DNA from: a bacterium
Lineage (GTDB): Bacteria > JAMOTN01
DNA: 11,247 nucleotides
Direction of reading: 5' to 3'
Assembly: GCA_027062325.1 (NCBI GenBank)
Contig: JAMOTN010000015.1
Coordinates: forward strand, 1 to 11,247
The position numbers and the translations under genes are program-made. The notes below the pieces were generated by a model that had not been told where the DNA came from, ran no database searches, and saw only the letters and a program-made list of their open reading frames with translations. This document shows positions 3,561 through 11,030 of the stretch, piece after piece. Numbering within the stretch: position 1 is the first letter of the stretch; each line of letters begins with the position of its first letter.

Positions 3561-4361
3561 CTACTCTGATAACTGTAAAGTCTCTTGATGCACACTCGGC
3601 TTCTCTGAGTATCCCTTGTCCTCGTAATATTTTAAATTCTCCCTGTACTTGCCAAGTTTAAAGTCAACAAAAGCCTTCCACGGGAAAAACAGCAAACTCT
3701 GTGCTGGAATTCCCTTCCTTCCAATGTCGCGCCACGAAGGTTCCAACTCCATTACCTTTGAAAGCATAGTTAAAACTTCCGTTTTCAAAGAAGTTTCAGC
3801 ATTTTGTAATTTAACCAAAAACTCCTCTAAGCATTGAGCCATAGTTGAAAATACATCTCGTACTAAATTTGGCAGATTCGCATCTTCGGATAACTTTTTG
3901 TAAAAAATCACACTTTTTTGCAAATACTTTTCCACATCAAGTCTGGGCTGTTTTTCAAACTCCTTAAATACAGAAGCGTAAAGCTTCAAACTCTGCTCAA
4001 CTTTAGAAAGCAATTTGGGATCACTGAAAAACTTAAAATTTTTCACTAAGTTATTCATAATCTTTTTCCTAGAATCTAAAGCCTCATCTACAAACTTAAA
4101 GTCCTCAATTCGAAAGGTTATTAAATCAGGGGATAACCCAGTAATTTTTTTAGAGTTGTATTTCAAAACTTTGACTTGAGTTTCTATTTCATACAAACTC
4201 CCCAATGCTTGAGAAAAAAACAAGTTGGGGTTAGAAACTATATAACTGCTGTAATCTTGCCATTTTTGATACTCATTAATCCAATCTGATGCAATATTTG
4301 GCGACACTTGCCCAGTAAAAAGCAAACTTGCAAAAAAGCTTATAACTATGAAAAGCTGCAT
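3561..4361 (-). CDS. Exported helical protein of unknown function
   Basis: I do not recognise this 266-residue protein. It starts with a short signal-peptide-like sequence (MQLFIVISFFASLLFTG, then QVS), with likely cleavage near residues 16-20 and no lipobox cysteine. The rest is Lys/Glu/Leu-rich and predicted by eye to be almost all alpha-helical, with aromatic-rich stretches near the N-terminus (WINEYQKWQDY). The longest ORF starts at a GTG (4370) that overlaps the Shine-Dalgarno GAGGTGG; the ATG at 4361 is 8 nt downstream of GAGG and overlaps the preceding stop (TAATG), so I use it. It is coupled directly to a lipoprotein gene of similar helical character, so the two products may act together at the cell surface or in the periplasm. 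This partnership is inference from gene order. Confidence 0.75.
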   Translation of the reverse strand: MQLFIVISFFASLLFTGQVSPNIASDWINEYQKWQDYSSYIVSNPNLFFSQALGSLYEIETQVKVLKYNSKKITGLSPDLITFRIEDFKFVDEALDSRKKIMNNLVKNFKFFSDPKLLSKVEQSLKLYASVFKEFEKQPRLDVEKYLQKSVIFYKKLSEDANLPNLVRDVFSTMAQCLEEFLVKLQNAETSLKTEVLTMLSKVMELEPSWRDIGRKGIPAQSLLFFPWKAFVDFKLGKYRENLKYYEDKGYSEKPSVHQETLQLSE

Positions 4362-5629
4362 TAAAACCACCTCTTGAAGAATGATTTCTTCCTACTTTTT
4401 TTCCTTCCCTGAGTAGCAAAAGTAGATATATTTTTTAAAACATTGGCAAGTTCATCCGCTTTATCTTTCATTCCATACTCTTTTGCCCTATCCAAGAGAA
4501 ACGAAACGTAAGTTTTAGCAACTCCTATCGGCATTACTTTCAAATTTTGATCAAGCTGCTCTATTGCAGCAACCAAACGTTTTTTGAAATCTGCAACTTT
4601 ATTTTTATATGCATTGTAAAGTTCAAGATACTTCAAAAAGTACGAAGGCTGTTTAAAAACCTCTTCAAACTTTTTAGACTTTGTAGAAAAATATTGAGAA
4701 TAGCGCATTTTTATAGCCAATTTATCAATATTTTCTATCTCTTTTAAATACTCTCCCCCTATACTTGAATAAGCGCACCTTAACAACCATACACCCTCCT
4801 GATTGAAAAATCCAAGTGGAATATCAGGACTTCTAAATGAAAGAAGATCCGAGGCTACCCTTTCCCACGAACCTGCAAAAGCCTCAAACAAAGCTTTAAC
4901 CTCTTTAACACCATTGTTAAACGCCAGTTCTCCCGTTCCATTCTCTATCCTTGACATTTGCTCTAAAAAATATGCCACATCTCCAACAACAGCCGCAGCT
5001 CTAAGCTGTAAAATCACTACATCTGCCAAGTTAAACGGATAAGATGCGTATTTGAAGTTTATAGGATTCACCGCAGTCCCCGGAAAAGTCCACCCTTTAT
5101 CAAGCTTTTTCAAAACCTTTTTAAAAGTTCTATCTATTTCAAAACGCAATTCCTTTTCAAAAGCAGCAAGCGAGTTCTTTAAATCAGCATAATTCTTATA
5201 ATAACCTGCCTCCAGAGAAAGCTCTCTAACCAACAACTTGATGAATTTTTCATCAAGCTCTGCACCTATCTCCTTGGAATACTTAAGAGCTGCCCTAAAC
5301 GCTTCACGTATTTTTCTCTTTGAAACATCTCCATGCATGTACATCCAACCAAGAAGTGCCTGACAAAACGAGTAATAAGCAGCAGCCTTCCTCCTAACTG
5401 TTCCCCCACTTTTGAAGTATATCTTCAAAAGTTTTGAACTCCAGTTCGTAAGCTGCCCCTCATCAAACATTATTAGAGAGTTCTCCATCTCTGTCTTAAC
5501 TTGCCAAAGCTTTTGCTCTTCACTAATAGCTAAAATACTCTCCCCCTTTTCCTTACCAACACCACATCCTGTAAGAAAAATACTGGACAAAATCCCAACC
5601 AGCACAACAATTAACCATACAAATCTCAT
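4361..5629 (-). CDS. Lipoprotein with all-helical, possibly solenoid, domain; function unknown
   Basis: A lipoprotein signal peptide is clear: MRFVWLIVVLVG, further hydrophobic residues, then the lipobox LTGC, with Cys22 as the lipidated residue if the start is the ATG at 5629. An earlier ATG at 5659 has a better Shine-Dalgarno (GAGGA about 9-10 nt upstream) and would overlap dnaB by 20 nt. It would, however, add ten residues including Asp and Glu before the signal, which is unusual, so the start is uncertain. The mature ~400 residues are rich in Ala, Lys, Glu, Leu and aromatics and look like a string of helices, suggestive of a TPR-like scaffold, though I see no clean repeat. The protein ends in a strongly basic tail (GRKKSRKKSFFKRWF). 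Its stop overlaps the start of the next exported-protein gene. With the GspE-type ATPase downstream, a pilotin- or assembly-like role is conceivable but not shown. Confidence 0.75.
   Translation of the reverse strand: MRFVWLIVVLVGILSSIFLTGCGVGKEKGESILAISEEQKLWQVKTEMENSLIMFDEGQLTNWSSKLLKIYFKSGGTVRRKAAAYYSFCQALLGWMYMHGDVSKRKIREAFRAALKYSKEIGAELDEKFIKLLVRELSLEAGYYKNYADLKNSLAAFEKELRFEIDRTFKKVLKKLDKGWTFPGTAVNPINFKYASYPFNLADVVILQLRAAAVVGDVAYFLEQMSRIENGTGELAFNNGVKEVKALFEAFAGSWERVASDLLSFRSPDIPLGFFNQEGVWLLRCAYSSIGGEYLKEIENIDKLAIKMRYSQYFSTKSKKFEEVFKQPSYFLKYLELYNAYKNKVADFKKRLVAAIEQLDQNLKVMPIGVAKTYVSFLLDRAKEYGMKDKADELANVLKNISTFATQGRKKSRKKSFFKRWF
4367..4373 (-). promoter_or_regulatory. Shine-Dalgarno that sets the exported-protein start at 4361
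   Basis: GAGGTGG on the minus strand; its GAGG core is 8 nt from the ATG at 4361. The GTG of the longest ORF (4370) overlaps this site, so it cannot use it as a ribosome binding site. Confidence 0.6.
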
Positions 5630-5639
5630 CTCAATAATA

Positions 5640-7418
5640 TCAGACCAAAGAATCCGCATCTCTCTTTATCCTCACCGCCTTTTTGCGAGCTGCAGAAAGG
5701 GCTCCCGTCTTTAAATCCTGCTTATCCCTAAACCTTATCATACCAGTCTCTATAAGCTTATTCAAAAGTCTATCAATTCTCGCATACCTGTACTTGTCTT
5801 CCTCCCCTTTAAATCCAAGCTCCACAAATTTGTTCTCTTCTATGAAGAAGAAAAACTGCACAACTGGTGGATAACCTTCTGGAGCATCCCTGTTTTTGTC
5901 AAGGTACAGGTTAACTATATCAATCTTTGGAACATTTTCTGGATCTTTTCCCATCTCACGCGCTTTTATTCGCAGTTGGTTCTCAAGCTCTGCTGTATCC
6001 TCCCAATCCTTTGCAAGAATCATAGCAACGTCCAAGTCGTACTCTATATCCCCTGATCCTTTTGTATGATACATAGTAGGCCTTCCTTTACCCGGTCCCG
6101 AATCCAATTCACATCCTTCACGAGTTAAAGAAGATATGACAACTATTGGACAATTCAACTCTATCGTAAGCCTCTTTATATCCGTCGATATCTCCTCAAT
6201 TTTGAAACGCTCTGTGGAATACTCTTTAGGATACGGCATCTTCTGGAGGTAATCTAGGAATATGACAATGTCATCCGTACCATGAATTTCCATCGCATTG
6301 TATGCGTAAGCCTTTATTCTGTCAACCGTATCTTTTTTGGATCCCTCCATTATATAGAAGTAATCCATATACTCCTCCATCTTTTTCCAACCTGCTGCAA
6401 ACCTTTCCATAAGCTCCGGATTCTTGGTTATGTCTTTTCTGCGCAAAGTATCTGGATTTATTCTACTCTCTTTTGCCAAAATACGATAAGTTAACGTTTT
6501 TCGCGTTTGCTCCCATGAAAAAAACAACACTGGTATCTTCTCATTGCGAGCAACCGTAGTTGCCAATTCCAAAGTAAGGGAAGTCTTTCCACGACGAGGT
6601 GCTCCCGCAATCGCATAGAAAAAGCCTTTTCTCAAGCCAGAAAGGGCTAAATTTAGATCGTTGTAAGGCTGGAGAGAATAACCAAGCGTTTCAATCTCCC
6701 CCGTCTTTGCCCTTTCCTCTATTTCTTTTGCAATTTCTATGAGTTCTGACTTTATTAACTTTATAGACTGTCCAGTGTGAGCCTTCTGAATTTCTCTTAA
6801 GTCGCGAACAAGTATGTTTACAAACTCAAGAACTGGAGTATTGGTATTCTCTTTTCCATCGATATAATCGTCAATTTTTCTTCTAACAAGTTTTAGTCTC
6901 TCTATGCTCGCTCTTTCCCTTAAACGTGCAAGATACTCCATCATGCTACCAAGCTGAACTGGCGGCTGATGCACTATTAAGTCAAGCACTTCCTCAATCT
7001 CGGGAGTCAACTCATTTTGTCGCTTTAAAAAATCCTGCACTAAAAATCTGTCCCAACTCTTTCCCTGTTTGTAGAAATAAACAAGTAGTTCCGCTATTTT
7101 ACGAGTTGCAGGATGATAAAGCATATCCGGAGAAAAACCCTCATTCAGCATCTTTCCCAAAACAAACTTATCTTTGAATATTCCTGTCAAAAACGTTATA
7201 TCAAGCTCTCCGTATTTTTTTAGAAGTTGAGCCTCTCTTGAGGTTGAAGTAGTAACTGTAGGAGAAGAAGTTATAGCTTCTTGCAAAAAAGCTTTTCCTT
7301 TGAATCCACCACCTGCAGCCGCAAAGCTTTTAAATTTTTCAAATGCACAATCTGCACATATACTTGTCATCCAATTATCAGGTAGCTCTTTCCCACAAAC
7401 TTCACATCTTTTAGGCAT
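5640..7418 (-). CDS. dnaB: DnaB-family hexameric helicase with N-terminal zinc finger
   Basis: RecA-fold helicase of the DnaB family, which unwinds DNA ahead of the replication fork. Numbered from the ATG at 7418 (592 residues): C5-x2-C8 and C21-x2-C24 form a small zinc ribbon; a low-complexity linker spans about 33-65; a DnaB-N-like helical region covers about 70-215; then the RecA core. The core has Walker A GAPRRGKTS at 272-280, SWEQTR at 301-306, Walker B IVIFLDYLQ at 384-392, ISSLTREG at 428-435 (family SQLxR), SGDIEYDLD at 455-463 and the arginine-finger-like KNRDAPEG at 508-515 (family KxRNGPTG). A basic C-terminal extension of about 55 residues follows. The GTG start of the longest ORF (7427) overlaps the GAGG Shine-Dalgarno; the ATG at 7418 is 8 nt away and is preferred. 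The zinc finger and C-terminal extension are not part of standard DnaB. It could be the replicative helicase or a diverged paralogue; a RadA/Sms assignment is less likely because the DnaB-N region and DnaB motifs are present. Confidence 0.88.
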   Translation of the reverse strand: MPKRCEVCGKELPDNWMTSICADCAFEKFKSFAAAGGGFKGKAFLQEAITSSPTVTTSTSREAQLLKKYGELDITFLTGIFKDKFVLGKMLNEGFSPDMLYHPATRKIAELLVYFYKQGKSWDRFLVQDFLKRQNELTPEIEEVLDLIVHQPPVQLGSMMEYLARLRERASIERLKLVRRKIDDYIDGKENTNTPVLEFVNILVRDLREIQKAHTGQSIKLIKSELIEIAKEIEERAKTGEIETLGYSLQPYNDLNLALSGLRKGFFYAIAGAPRRGKTSLTLELATTVARNEKIPVLFFSWEQTRKTLTYRILAKESRINPDTLRRKDITKNPELMERFAAGWKKMEEYMDYFYIMEGSKKDTVDRIKAYAYNAMEIHGTDDIVIFLDYLQKMPYPKEYSTERFKIEEISTDIKRLTIELNCPIVVISSLTREGCELDSGPGKGRPTMYHTKGSGDIEYDLDVAMILAKDWEDTAELENQLRIKAREMGKDPENVPKIDIVNLYLDKNRDAPEGYPPVVQFFFFIEENKFVELGFKGEEDKYRYARIDRLLNKLIETGMIRFRDKQDLKTGALSAARKKAVRIKRDADSLV

Positions 7419-7426
7419 AAAAAACA

Positions 7427-7430
7427 CCTC
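7427..7430 (-). promoter_or_regulatory. Shine-Dalgarno that sets the dnaB start at 7418
   Basis: GAGG (in GAAGAGGTG) on the minus strand lies 8 nt from the ATG at 7418. The GTG at 7427 shares its first base with this site, so it is not a credible start. Confidence 0.6.
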
Positions 7431-7455: not shown

Positions 7456-7695
7456 CTATTCCAAAATTTCTATAACCTCAAGTCCACTCAACTCACTCTT
7501 GGCTCCTTCTAAAAATTCAAGAAGCTCATTTTTTAAGCCTGAAGTAGTCGATAACTTGAGTCGTGCTTCAAAAGAATCAAGACATGTGCACACTGCTAAA
7601 TTATCCGCCGCCTTTATCATCTCATCAAAAAAACCAACTTCTGCTCTATCAAGATGTACTATAACCTCGACTGGCAAAGTAACTTCTCTTGCCAA
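7456..7695 (-). CDS. Small DUF4911-like protein
   Basis: About 79 residues. The pattern VEVIVHLDRAEVGFFDEMIK followed by AADNLAVCTCLD, then a C-terminal helix with ELLEFLEG, resembles from memory the DUF4911 family, a small alpha/beta domain of unknown function found in several anaerobic bacteria. The start is ambiguous. An AGGAG Shine-Dalgarno (7708-7704) overlaps the gltX stop. A GTG at 7704 lies on it and an ATG at 7701 is only 2 nt from it, while a TTG at 7695 has an ideal 8 nt spacing, so I use the TTG. The gene follows gltX immediately and precedes dnaB by 37 nt, so it is cotranscribed with both. Two neighbouring cysteines (CTC) occur in the middle; no other catalytic motif is visible. 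No function can be assigned. Confidence 0.65.
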   Translation of the reverse strand: MAREVTLPVEVIVHLDRAEVGFFDEMIKAADNLAVCTCLDSFEARLKLSTTSGLKNELLEFLEGAKSELSGLEVIEILE

Positions 7696-7706
7696 GAACA
7701 TCACTC

Positions 7707-9200
7707 CTAATTAAAATTTGCCGACAAACTTTTAACATAGTTATTGAGCCTTTTCAAAACCCTTTCCTTCCCAAGCCAGTACACAACCTCTGTAATGTTT
7801 GGTCCATCTGCCAAGTTGGTAGCCACTAATCTAAAAGGTTTGTACAAGTTTTTACCCTTGCAGCCCTGTTTTATTGCCAACTTAAAAGTAGCTTTTATGG
7901 ATTCCATACTCCATTCGCAACCTTGTAAATTTTCAACTAAAGCATACAAAACCTCACAAAATTTACTCCAATTATCACAAAACTTAATTCTATCTTCATC
8001 TGAAATTACTTTATCCTCTAAAACTTCAAGCAAAATCTTTACCAATTCATAAAAATTGGCAGCATTTTCTCTGAAAAGATACGCCAAATTCAAAACGTTA
8101 CCCTTTTCCGAAACGAAATATTTAGACAACCTATTAACAACACCTTTCACATTTTCCAAAAGATTTTCTACATCTTCGGTATACGCCTTCTCCTTCTTTA
8201 CATAAGCAATCCAATTTTCAAATTCCCTTACAAACTCCTCAAAACCCAACTCCTTCATGTGAACAGAGTTTATATATCTCAATTTATCAAGATCAAAACG
8301 AGCAGGCGAAGTATTTAAACGCTCTACTGTAAATCTATTCACAAGCTCTTCAACTTTGAAAATTTCCTTCTCTTCAGGATGCGACCATCCCATGAGTGCA
8401 AGCCAATTCACAACTGACTGAGGAAGGTACCCTGCAACATGCAATTCAACAACTGTGGCACCCCCCTCTCGCTTTGAAAGTTTTTTACCTTCTTTATTCA
8501 ATATCAGTGGAATATGGGCAAATTCTGGAACATCAAAACTTAAAGCTTTATAAAGCAATATCTGCTTAGGTGTATTTGGCACGTGATCTTCTCCACGCAG
8601 AACAAAATTTATCCCCATTGTAGCATCGTCCACAACAACGCAATAATTATATGTATAGCTACCATCACCTCTTCTAACCACAAAATCCTCAAGATTTGCA
8701 GTGTTGTAAACAACCTCTCCCTTTACAAAATCACGCCACTTAACATCCTCATTTTCAGGAACTGCAAAACGCCATGCAGCCCTTTGACCATCTCTTAAGC
8801 GTTGTTCTCTCTCTTCTCTTGAAAGTTTTCTACATGTTCCCGGGTATTTATAAGGCTCTCCTTTTTCACGAGCTTTTTTTCTAGCTTCTTCAAGCTTCTG
8901 GGGATCACAAAAACACGGATAAATTTTTTCTTCACTTTTCAACTTTTCAAAGTATTCACCGTAAAAATCTGCCCTATCAGACTGCCTATAAAGCTCATCC
9001 CACATCAACCCCAACCACTCAAGCTGTTTTTTTATATCCTCCTCAAAGTATTCGCGACTTCTTTCAGGATCCGTATCTTCTATTCTCAAAACGAACTTTC
9101 CACCCTTTGAACGCGCATGCAACCAGTTAAATAGAGCAGTTCTAGCCCCTCCAACGTGCAAGTATCCCGTAGGAGAGGGAGCAAATCTAACCTTTAACAT
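7707..9200 (-). CDS. gltX: Glutamyl-tRNA synthetase
   Basis: Class I aminoacyl-tRNA synthetase that charges tRNA-Glu (and in many bacteria also tRNA-Gln, for later amidation). The 497-residue length is normal. The N-terminus has RFAPSPTGYLHVGGART with the HIGH-like HVGG at 15-18; IEDTDPERS follows at about 40-48. A CFC...Y...C zinc-site pattern occurs at C96, C98, Y119 and C123. LRGEDHVPNTPKQ is at about 201-213, and the KMSKS-like KLSKR at 240-244. The C-terminal helical anticodon-binding region (about 320-497) is more diverged. ATG at 9200 has a well-spaced AGAGGTG Shine-Dalgarno. It starts 17 nt after the CBS-HutP gene and its TAG overlaps the next gene's Shine-Dalgarno. I cannot tell discriminating from non-discriminating GluRS by eye. 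Confidence 0.97.
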   Translation of the reverse strand: MLKVRFAPSPTGYLHVGGARTALFNWLHARSKGGKFVLRIEDTDPERSREYFEEDIKKQLEWLGLMWDELYRQSDRADFYGEYFEKLKSEEKIYPCFCDPQKLEEARKKAREKGEPYKYPGTCRKLSREEREQRLRDGQRAAWRFAVPENEDVKWRDFVKGEVVYNTANLEDFVVRRGDGSYTYNYCVVVDDATMGINFVLRGEDHVPNTPKQILLYKALSFDVPEFAHIPLILNKEGKKLSKREGGATVVELHVAGYLPQSVVNWLALMGWSHPEEKEIFKVEELVNRFTVERLNTSPARFDLDKLRYINSVHMKELGFEEFVREFENWIAYVKKEKAYTEDVENLLENVKGVVNRLSKYFVSEKGNVLNLAYLFRENAANFYELVKILLEVLEDKVISDEDRIKFCDNWSKFCEVLYALVENLQGCEWSMESIKATFKLAIKQGCKGKNLYKPFRLVATNLADGPNITEVVYWLGKERVLKRLNNYVKSLSANFN

Positions 9201-9217
9201 TACACTTCACCTCTAAC

Positions 9218-10006
9218 CTAAGCTTTCTCATCTGAAGGTCCTATAACAGCAAATCCCATAAAAAGTTGCATTGGTGAATTAGCAAGTGCGTGTCCACAAC
9301 GTCCAAAAGCAGCAACGCAAATTCTTCCATGTCCTCTTACCACAGAAACCTTAAATCCACCACCAAGTCCAGGATTTACCGCTGCAAGCTGTAAATAAAC
9401 ATCTCGTACAGCATTCGATATAGCTATCTTTTCATTTGAATCTTCCTTTATAACACCGCGCGCAATAGCTGCCACAATTGCACTTTCTCTCATCTTTATT
9501 GGAAGCTGTTCAGCCGTAGCTCCTACTTGAGTTATAGCAGCTTTATAACCCTCCTCTCGGCACTTTTCCAACCAATGCTCCTCTTTGCTCCTATCCGTAC
9601 TCATAGCAAGGTATATAGCTGCTCTTTCTGGAGTAAGCTCCGGATATTTTCCTTCAAATACGGCATCTTCAACTAATTCTTTAGGGGTTATAATCCCCAC
9701 AACCTTTCCCTTTTCAAGAACAGGGATATAAGAAAGCCGATTAATTGTCATAAGCTTTGCAGCCTCTTTAACTTCTTCTTCTCCTTCAATCCCCAAAAAT
9801 TTCTTATTCATAATCTTAGCAACAGGAGCATTATCATCATTTTCCTTAAGGAGATCAGTAGGATCAATAATACCAACTATCTCCCCTTCATCTTCAACCA
9901 TGATACACTCAGGCTGATGTAAAAGCATTATTCTCTTAGCCTTTGCCACAGGCTCGTCTGCACTCATCTTAAAAAGAGTGGTTCTCATTACCTCCTTTAC
10001 CTTCAT
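9218..10006 (-). CDS. CBS-domain pair fused to a HutP-like domain
   Basis: Two CBS domains (about residues 1-56 and 57-116: MKVKEVMRTTLFKMSADEPV, then KIMNKKFLGIEGEEEV) are followed by a C-terminal domain (about 125-256) resembling HutP. The match is in the order PERAAIYLAMS, EEHWLEKCREEGYKAAITQVG, ESAIVAAIARGVIKED, then GGFKVSVVRGHGRICVAAFG. CBS pairs bind adenosine nucleotides such as AMP, ATP or S-adenosylmethionine; B. subtilis HutP is a histidine- and Mg-dependent RNA-binding antiterminator. The Mg ligands of B. subtilis HutP (His73 and His77) align with Ile and Asn here, so histidine/metal regulation of that kind is not expected. Start: the longest ORF begins at a GTG (10015) inside AGGAGGTG; the ATG at 10006 has 8 nt spacing and matches the usual CBS beginning. 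It overlaps the end of yacL by 38 nt and lies just ahead of gltX. A regulator reading an adenylate ligand and acting on RNA is an attractive inference, not shown. Confidence 0.8.
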   Translation of the reverse strand: MKVKEVMRTTLFKMSADEPVAKAKRIMLLHQPECIMVEDEGEIVGIIDPTDLLKENDDNAPVAKIMNKKFLGIEGEEEVKEAAKLMTINRLSYIPVLEKGKVVGIITPKELVEDAVFEGKYPELTPERAAIYLAMSTDRSKEEHWLEKCREEGYKAAITQVGATAEQLPIKMRESAIVAAIARGVIKEDSNEKIAISNAVRDVYLQLAAVNPGLGGGFKVSVVRGHGRICVAAFGRCGHALANSPMQLFMGFAVIGPSDEKA

Positions 10007-11030
10007 CTCCTTCACCTCCTAAAACTTCAACCAAAACAGCAAAGTAAACTTTTCCCACCTCTGTCGGGGTTACATTTGTTATTTTAACACGAACGCGTTT
10101 CTCCAAAATATCTCTTTTAAAAGGTATCACCACCATATTTCCAAACTCAGTATAAGCCACATATTGGTCCTTTTCGCGCCCACGCTTTACCGGAATCACT
10201 TCAACCACATCCCCAACTTTTAAATCTTCCGTTATATTCAACTCAGTCAAATCGATAACATCTACTTTTAAACTGCGAGCCATTCCAGCTACAGCTCTGT
10301 CAGCTGTAACAACTCGCCCTTCTAAAGCTTTGGCAACTTCTATTAGCTGCACATCAACTTCATCAGACTTTGTATAATTTAAAGGATCAACCTCGATAAC
10401 ATCCATATCTTTTATTATCTTTAAAGCATTTAAAACAGCCTTTCTCTTAGAAGGCAGCTCTGAAAGGAGCGCTAATTCTCGTAGCACTGTATTGAGAAGC
10501 ACGATCTTTCCTTCTAAAACTTTAAAGGAAAGAAGTACCTCAAACTTTTTGGATAACAAAGCGCTCGTGTCAACAACTTTTGGCGGTACCACTTCCCATA
10601 AATTCGAAATTCCCTCCTTGAATAGCACAAATCCAACCCACCCAATAAACACTGCTCCCAAAAATGGCAAAAATAAAGCTAGAATTTCCAGACTTTTTTG
10701 AAACCACTCAACGTCACTATACTCACCAGCAATATTCTTTAACCAACCGGAAACAGGCATGAAAAATAAATACCCAACTATAGCAGATAAAACCACCACG
10801 GCAAAACTCCTAAGTATTACAACAGGTGGATTCCTTCTAAAGTACTTAACAAAAGTTTCCATAAAATACCTAGTCAAAATTGAAGAAAGCAACCAAAAAG
10901 TTGCTCCAAATAAGAAAACAACAGAATATATATTAGCCTCCATCCAGCTGTAGGCTGGTGCTATCTCCCATCCCACAAAACAGCCAACAATAGTGGACAC
11001 CATAACTATAAAGTTCCTGAAAATCTCCAT
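9969..11030 (-). CDS. yacL: YacL-type membrane protein with PIN and TRAM domains
   Basis: Integral membrane protein with a cytoplasmic PIN nuclease-like domain and a TRAM RNA-binding domain. Four hydrophobic segments are visible at about 8-26, 34-53, 72-92 and 114-137. The PIN domain runs from about 150 to 262: VVDTSAL with Asp154, RELALL with Glu185, SDEVDVQL with Asp226, and VVTADRAVAGMA with Asp244, i.e. the usual acidic set. The VDTSVIIDGRI motif seen in many YacL proteins is here VDTSALLSKKF, so the DGR part is lost. A TRAM-like beta domain (about 267-337) follows, beginning LKVGDVVEVIPVKRGRE. The last ~14 residues are Gly/Glu/Lys-rich and overlap the next gene. ATG at 11030 follows GGGAG at 7 nt. 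Whether it cleaves RNA is unknown; placement next to gltX is common in Firmicutes. Confidence 0.9.
   Translation of the reverse strand: MEIFRNFIVMVSTIVGCFVGWEIAPAYSWMEANIYSVVFLFGATFWLLSSILTRYFMETFVKYFRRNPPVVILRSFAVVVLSAIVGYLFFMPVSGWLKNIAGEYSDVEWFQKSLEILALFLPFLGAVFIGWVGFVLFKEGISNLWEVVPPKVVDTSALLSKKFEVLLSFKVLEGKIVLLNTVLRELALLSELPSKRKAVLNALKIIKDMDVIEVDPLNYTKSDEVDVQLIEVAKALEGRVVTADRAVAGMARSLKVDVIDLTELNITEDLKVGDVVEVIPVKRGREKDQYVAYTEFGNMVVIPFKRDILEKRVRVKITNVTPTEVGKVYFAVLVEVLGGEGDEGKGGNENHSF
9991..10020 (-). promoter_or_regulatory. Clustered Shine-Dalgarno motifs inside the end of yacL
   Basis: Read on the minus strand, this stretch contains AGGAGGTGA, AAGGAG and AAAGGAGG in a row within the last codons of yacL. 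The first is optimally spaced (8 nt) for the ATG at 10006. The last is only 2 nt before the in-frame ATG at 9988 and is probably not a functional start signal. The purine-rich signal gives YacL an unusual Gly/Glu/Lys-rich tail. Confidence 0.55.

Follow-up and report, generated by a model that had tools for sequence, protein, structure and literature searches.

HutP is the textbook case of an antiterminator gated by a ligand, and has been studied in one small branch. The 11,247-nt stretch of bacterial DNA considered here (“the window”) encodes a protein in which a HutP-like domain follows a pair of CBS domains, and the gene, here called cbs-hutP, is located between yacL and gltX. This raises the question of what a HutP domain does in such a protein and at such a location. 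A literature search found no publication on CBS-HutP, i.e., on HutP together with a CBS domain, and no paper on the function of YacL.

The positions of the genes and domains are listed in Table 1. An earlier note on this DNA had assigned the cbs-hutP reading frame an ATG start at position 10006. We retain that start because an AGGAGG ribosome-binding site (RBS) lies 8 nt upstream of it; the longer alternative, a GTG at 10015, falls within that same RBS. The earlier note had also described the gene as lying between a TRAM-bearing yacL and gltX. Indeed, TRAM scores 22.2 bits in the window's YacL (Pfam cut-off 21), the YacL orthologues at loci L155 and L160 carry PIN plus TRAM, and gltX follows directly, 17 nt downstream of cbs-hutP. 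The yacL gene overlaps the start of cbs-hutP by 38 nt, and the two genes are likely to be translationally coupled through this overlap.

Table 1. Features of the cbs-hutP locus, in window coordinates, with the basis for each assignment
Feature	Position	Strand	Basis
cbs-hutP gene	9218..10006	minus	262 aa; ORF list and sequence, Pfam CBS and HutP
CBS pair, residues about 1-113	9668..10006	minus	PF00571 2.4e-18; model residues 1-120 match CBS pairs, Z about 18
HutP-fold domain, residues about 121-256	9239..9646	minus	PF09021 5.9e-31; 4ok9 Z 18.0; 62-sequence alignment
yacL, membrane-anchored PIN-TRAM protein	9969..11030	minus	Pfam TRAM, PIN plus TRAM in orthologues, synteny
gltX, glutamyl-tRNA synthetase	7707..9200	minus	Pfam tRNA-synt_1c 1.3e-94, synteny

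Several other genes follow gltX. A small DUF4911 protein (7456-7704; Pfam, 43.9 bits) is encoded between gltX and a gene at 5640-7427, whose product has a DnaB-type helicase C-terminal domain that scores too low for the curated replicative-DnaB cut-offs, and a weak zinc-ribbon match at the N-terminus. Two neighboring ORFs at 3561-5659 (432 and 269 aa) have no Pfam match over cut-off; one of them has a lipoprotein-like N-terminus. A viral contig scan found no match.

The proposal that one protein carries both a CBS pair and a HutP-like domain was borne out. PF00571 matches the N-terminal half in two stretches (2.4e-18), PF09021 matches the C-terminal half at 5.9e-31 (107.8 bits, with a cut-off of 25), and all 31 proteins scanned match both Pfam families. 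AlphaFold2 modeled the full-length protein with a pLDDT of 89.4, using a 31-sequence alignment, and the HutP half alone with a pLDDT of 93.0. The closest structure to the modeled HutP half is Geobacillus HutP (4ok9; Z 18.0, rmsd 2.1, 129 residues), followed by B. subtilis HutP (1vea/1wpv) with Z 17.5-17.6. Six HutP entries fall between Z 16.6 and 18.0, and the next fold, which is SpoIIAB-like, scores 6.6, the level of common arrangements. No non-HutP fold exceeded Z 6.6 for this half in the aligned structure set, which is not proof of absence; among the matches, no enzyme family competes with HutP. Single-sequence and profile searches of PDB sequences missed HutP; the relationship is seen only by Pfam and structure. 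Together, the Pfam matches and the predicted structure confirm that this protein links a genuine HutP fold to a CBS pair. The likeness to the HutPs of B. subtilis and Geobacillus (PF09021; 1wpv, 1wmq, 4ok9) extends over the whole domain, with Z 17-18 and about 21% identity.

The fusion recurs well beyond the window. With two fusions as queries, searches of genome contigs turned up a further six, in Muiribacteriota, Halanaerobacter and Bacillota. When a profile was built from the HutP half, matches at >200 bits identified the fusion in 27 of 299 sampled Bacillota genomes; nearly all of these matches are in frames of at least about 260 aa, and one ends at a contig edge. The other Bacillota matches listed score <60 bits, and nearly all of their frames are about 140-200 aa long. 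In the Muiribacterium phylum, 32 of 39 genomes carry the fusion, most of them together with a second, stand-alone HutP, as does the window genome; one Fusobacteriota-like genome carries it as well. We compared 62 CBS-HutP proteins, including the window copy, whose nearest relative (G494) is 73% identical. The fusions form a single clade on a long branch (support 94/94, recovered in 96% of bootstrap trees), showing a single origin. A chance fusion or assembly artefact is ruled out by the 61 relatives of like architecture, nearly all at the same locus. CBS-HutP is thus a conserved family in several distantly related bacterial groups.

At these loci, yacL precedes cbs-hutP, with ispD-ispF between the two in Bacillota only, and cbs-hutP is followed by gltX or murA. 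The Bacillota operon is radA-disA-carD-yacL-ispD-ispF, with cbs-hutP behind ispF/ispD: in 27 of 27 loci, ispF, ispD or ispDF immediately precedes cbs-hutP, with yacL before those, and the downstream gene is gltX in 15 and murA in 8. In the Muiribacterium phylum, yacL is directly upstream in 28 of 31 loci and gltX downstream in 25 of 31, with gltX often following after a gap of 1-3 nt. Locus L033, where the fusion adjoins guaA, is an exception. By contrast with the fusions, none of 15 stand-alone HutP loci is near yacL, ispD/ispF, gltX or murA. Loci within one phylum are related and their counts are not independent; sharing between phyla is the stronger point, and it is because the position between yacL and gltX is conserved across phyla that we consider it meaningful.

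Could the protein be an antiterminator of the classical HutP type, binding NAG repeats together with L-histidine and Mg2+? It shares the fold and the Pfam family with such proteins. In published structures of B. subtilis HutP, H73, H77 and H138 (numbering of the PDB sequence) are the ligands of the metal in the L-His-Mg2+ complex. When the window protein is aligned to the B. subtilis and Geobacillus HutPs, H73 is replaced by I194 and H77 by N198, exactly as the earlier note had stated, and H138 is also gone. No fusion among the 62 has a histidine at position 73 or 77, and a single aligned histidine occurs at position 138 among the 31 compared. Moreover, NAG clusters are not enriched around the fusion loci, and no hut genes were recognized in the neighborhood, whereas the HutPs of B. 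subtilis and Geobacillus are encoded with hut genes. Classical hut antitermination is very improbable, and we rejected it on the missing histidines. The protein is in the HutP fold family but is not a hut-type antiterminator.

The missing histidines had also been read as a possible sign that fusion to the CBS pair rewired the domain, and this reading is not supported in that form. Among 49 stand-alone members of the HutP family, drawn from Fusobacteriota-like and Bacillota genomes, positions 73/77 are Gly-Gly in 47, Asp/Arg in one and His-His in one (L068); the second HutP of the window genome also lacks the pair. Since 48 of the 49 stand-alone proteins are without H73/H77, their loss does not mark the CBS fusion. 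Within this sample, it is the His/Mg site that is the exception, i.e., the rarer state. The stand-alone HutPs found in Clostridia and Fusobacteria, which are about 140 aa long and share about 31-35% identity with the window protein, resemble the fusions in lacking the His pair, but differ in their Gly-Gly at 73/77, in having no CBS domains, and in forming a separate clade.

What the fusions have at this site is distinctive. The metal face of B. subtilis HutP (H73, H77, E81) is I/F/M, N and D in the fusions, with D202 present in 61 of 62. The pocket face is thus kept within the CBS-fused class and differs from that of the other classes. Mean pairwise identity is 0.72 for the HutP half versus 0.37 for the CBS half, and 31 positions in the HutP half do not vary among the 62 sequences, 14 of them polar, charged or Trp (G256-A262 in the 95% conservation list are gap artefacts and were left out of the counts). 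The invariant residues include E127, E142, W145, T159, Q160, K171, R173, E174, E188, K193, S197, Q206, K219, H239, and the loop G213-L214-G215-G216-G217 (GLGGG). Fourteen such positions is a large number for a plain RNA binder, and we count them against an RNA role. Maintained in several phyla, they and the GLGGG loop would fit an enzyme whose HutP fold has turned into a catalytic or metabolite-processing domain controlled by the CBS pair; other HutP classes, too, adjoin metabolic genes. However, the only strong fold match is to HutP (Z about 17-18), well above the next fold, and no catalytic motif of a known family was seen. We therefore regard an enzymatic function as improbable, though less so than classical antitermination.

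At the position of T56 in B. subtilis HutP, presumably an RNA contact, all fusions aligned have V or A; R98, T99 and E137 are either substituted or aligned with gaps, in a region where the alignment is unsure. Paired NAG clusters, searched for around the loci only, numbered 7 in 1.5 Mb of strand, at 4 of 62 loci. The window contains no Rfam element and no visible leader, and its terminator-like sites are within shuffle noise. Attenuation in cis before gltX was rejected, as there is no Rfam match in the window and the 17-nt gap leaves no room for an attenuator; in related operons, the T-boxes detected are behind gltX or before cysE, not between cbs-hutP and gltX. Because T56 is changed, NAG clusters are rare and no Rfam element is present, it is the fold, of all these features, that suggests RNA binding. 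The earlier note had suggested a role in translation or RNA control from the location of the gene. The location has gained in weight, being conserved across phyla, but RNA control finds no support in the V or A at position 56, the lack of NAG enrichment or the gltX gaps of often 1-3 nt.

The modeled CBS half resembles CBS pairs such as AcuB with bound AMP/ADP/ATP and 2yzi (Z about 18), and c-di-AMP-bound DarB and OpuCA are also among its matches. In the CBS2 motif G-x-x-T/S-x-x-D/E, T/S is present at position 107 in 57 of 62 fusions and D at 110, the ribose position, in 59 of 62; in CBS1, Asp51 is kept in 36 of 62. The window protein has T107/E110 in CBS2 and D48/D51 in CBS1, with Glu110 where the family mostly has D. 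From these residues, an adenine-nucleotide signal into the CBS pair is plausible. The window genome also has a gene for a c-di-AMP cyclase. As a main claim, however, a direct link to c-di-AMP through disA was set aside, since it draws on synteny in Bacillota only; disA does not adjoin cbs-hutP in the window, nor does it in the Muiribacterium phylum.

Two known CBS proteins offer a different model for the output. AcuB (CBS-ACT), one of the top structural matches to the CBS half, likewise consists of a CBS pair and a small domain at the C-terminal end; this domain is an ACT domain, not HutP. DarB/CbpB matches the fusion in the fold of its CBS pair (Z 15.7) and possibly in responding to a second messenger, but has no C-terminal domain and is 12% identical. 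DarB regulates Rel and pyruvate carboxylase (PMC7900238, PMC8822347); in the case of Rel, this CBS-only protein acts by binding its partner, and c-di-AMP blocks that binding (PMC7900238). By analogy, the CBS pair of the fusion may sense c-di-AMP or ATP/AMP, while the HutP half, having lost RNA binding, would dock on YacL, GltX or another operon product and regulate it. Consistent with this, yacL is a nearly constant operon partner, the T56 contact of the B. subtilis type is changed, and the Bacillota copies sit in the disA operon. Against it, the matches to AcuB, DarB and OpuCA are generic to CBS pairs, and the disA neighborhood is confined to Bacillota. We consider such protein-protein control possible, and nearly as likely as an RNA output.

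Our preferred reading, which we hold tentatively and at somewhat less than an even chance, is that the protein is a nucleotide-gated hexameric regulator with a re-specialized pocket and an RNA output. The CBS pairs would dimerize, with an adenine nucleotide (AMP/ADP/ATP or c-di-AMP) bound chiefly at the CBS2 site, and the HutP halves would form a HutP-like hexamer. Its pocket would lie on the helix face of B. subtilis H73/H77/E81, re-specialized through I194/N198/D202 together with H239, K219 and the GLGGG loop, presumably for a ligand other than a His-Mg chelate. The nucleotide state would gate the pocket and thereby the binding of single-stranded RNA in trans, so that operon-linked expression or RNA turnover (YacL PIN-TRAM, GltX) would follow the energy or second-messenger state. 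Several features support such a regulator: the domains, the fold, the conservation of the HutP half, the single clade, the operon position, the CBS2 motif, the c-di-AMP cyclase, and the only studied relative, HutP, a hexameric ligand-gated RNA-binding antiterminator (PMC7430163). Counted against it are the changes at T56 and R98/T99/E137, the rarity of NAG clusters, the lack of a leader, Rfam element or excess of terminators, the short gap before gltX, the retention of CBS1 Asp51 in little more than half of the fusions, and the Glu110 of the window protein.

More broadly, and with somewhat less confidence, we suggest that the HutP fold may be a general platform for ligand-gated regulators, comprising at least four classes that differ in pocket residues and in gene partners: the hut type (His-His), a shikimate-linked class (Gly-Gly), an ABC-ATPase-linked class, and the CBS-fused class (Ile-Asn plus the invariant His239). 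The last of these, near-universal in the Muiribacterium phylum, would couple the adenine-nucleotide/c-di-AMP state to the translation/RNA-decay operon yacL-gltX. The CBS-fused proteins are a sister class of HutP, joined to putative nucleotide sensors, and in several phyla they have a constant place within a core operon. If the fusion is a nucleotide-gated regulator of RNA or protein, it would connect glutamyl-tRNA synthesis and RNA processing with the energy or c-di-AMP state, and HutP would be recast as a broad switch family with separate ligands, each open to binding tests.

The stand-alone HutPs have neighbors of their own. The sole sampled HutP that keeps H73/H77/H138 (L068) adjoins a polar amino-acid ABC transporter (L127:4642-6772), and no hut enzymes were recognized near it. 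In the clostridial loci examined, short stand-alone HutPs directly adjoin an AroH-type chorismate mutase (PF07736; L126:4185-4985, L133:4735-5576, L140:4790-5629), and in Fusobacteriota-like genomes, aroK/aroQ-like genes are nearby; this shikimate-linked class may sense an aromatic metabolite. The second HutP class of the Muiribacterium phylum (about 155 aa) is close to a MalK/UgpC-type ABC ATPase in 9 of the 9 loci examined (L184-L192), and the second HutP gene of the window genome overlaps the gene for such an ATPase (L035:9158-10709).
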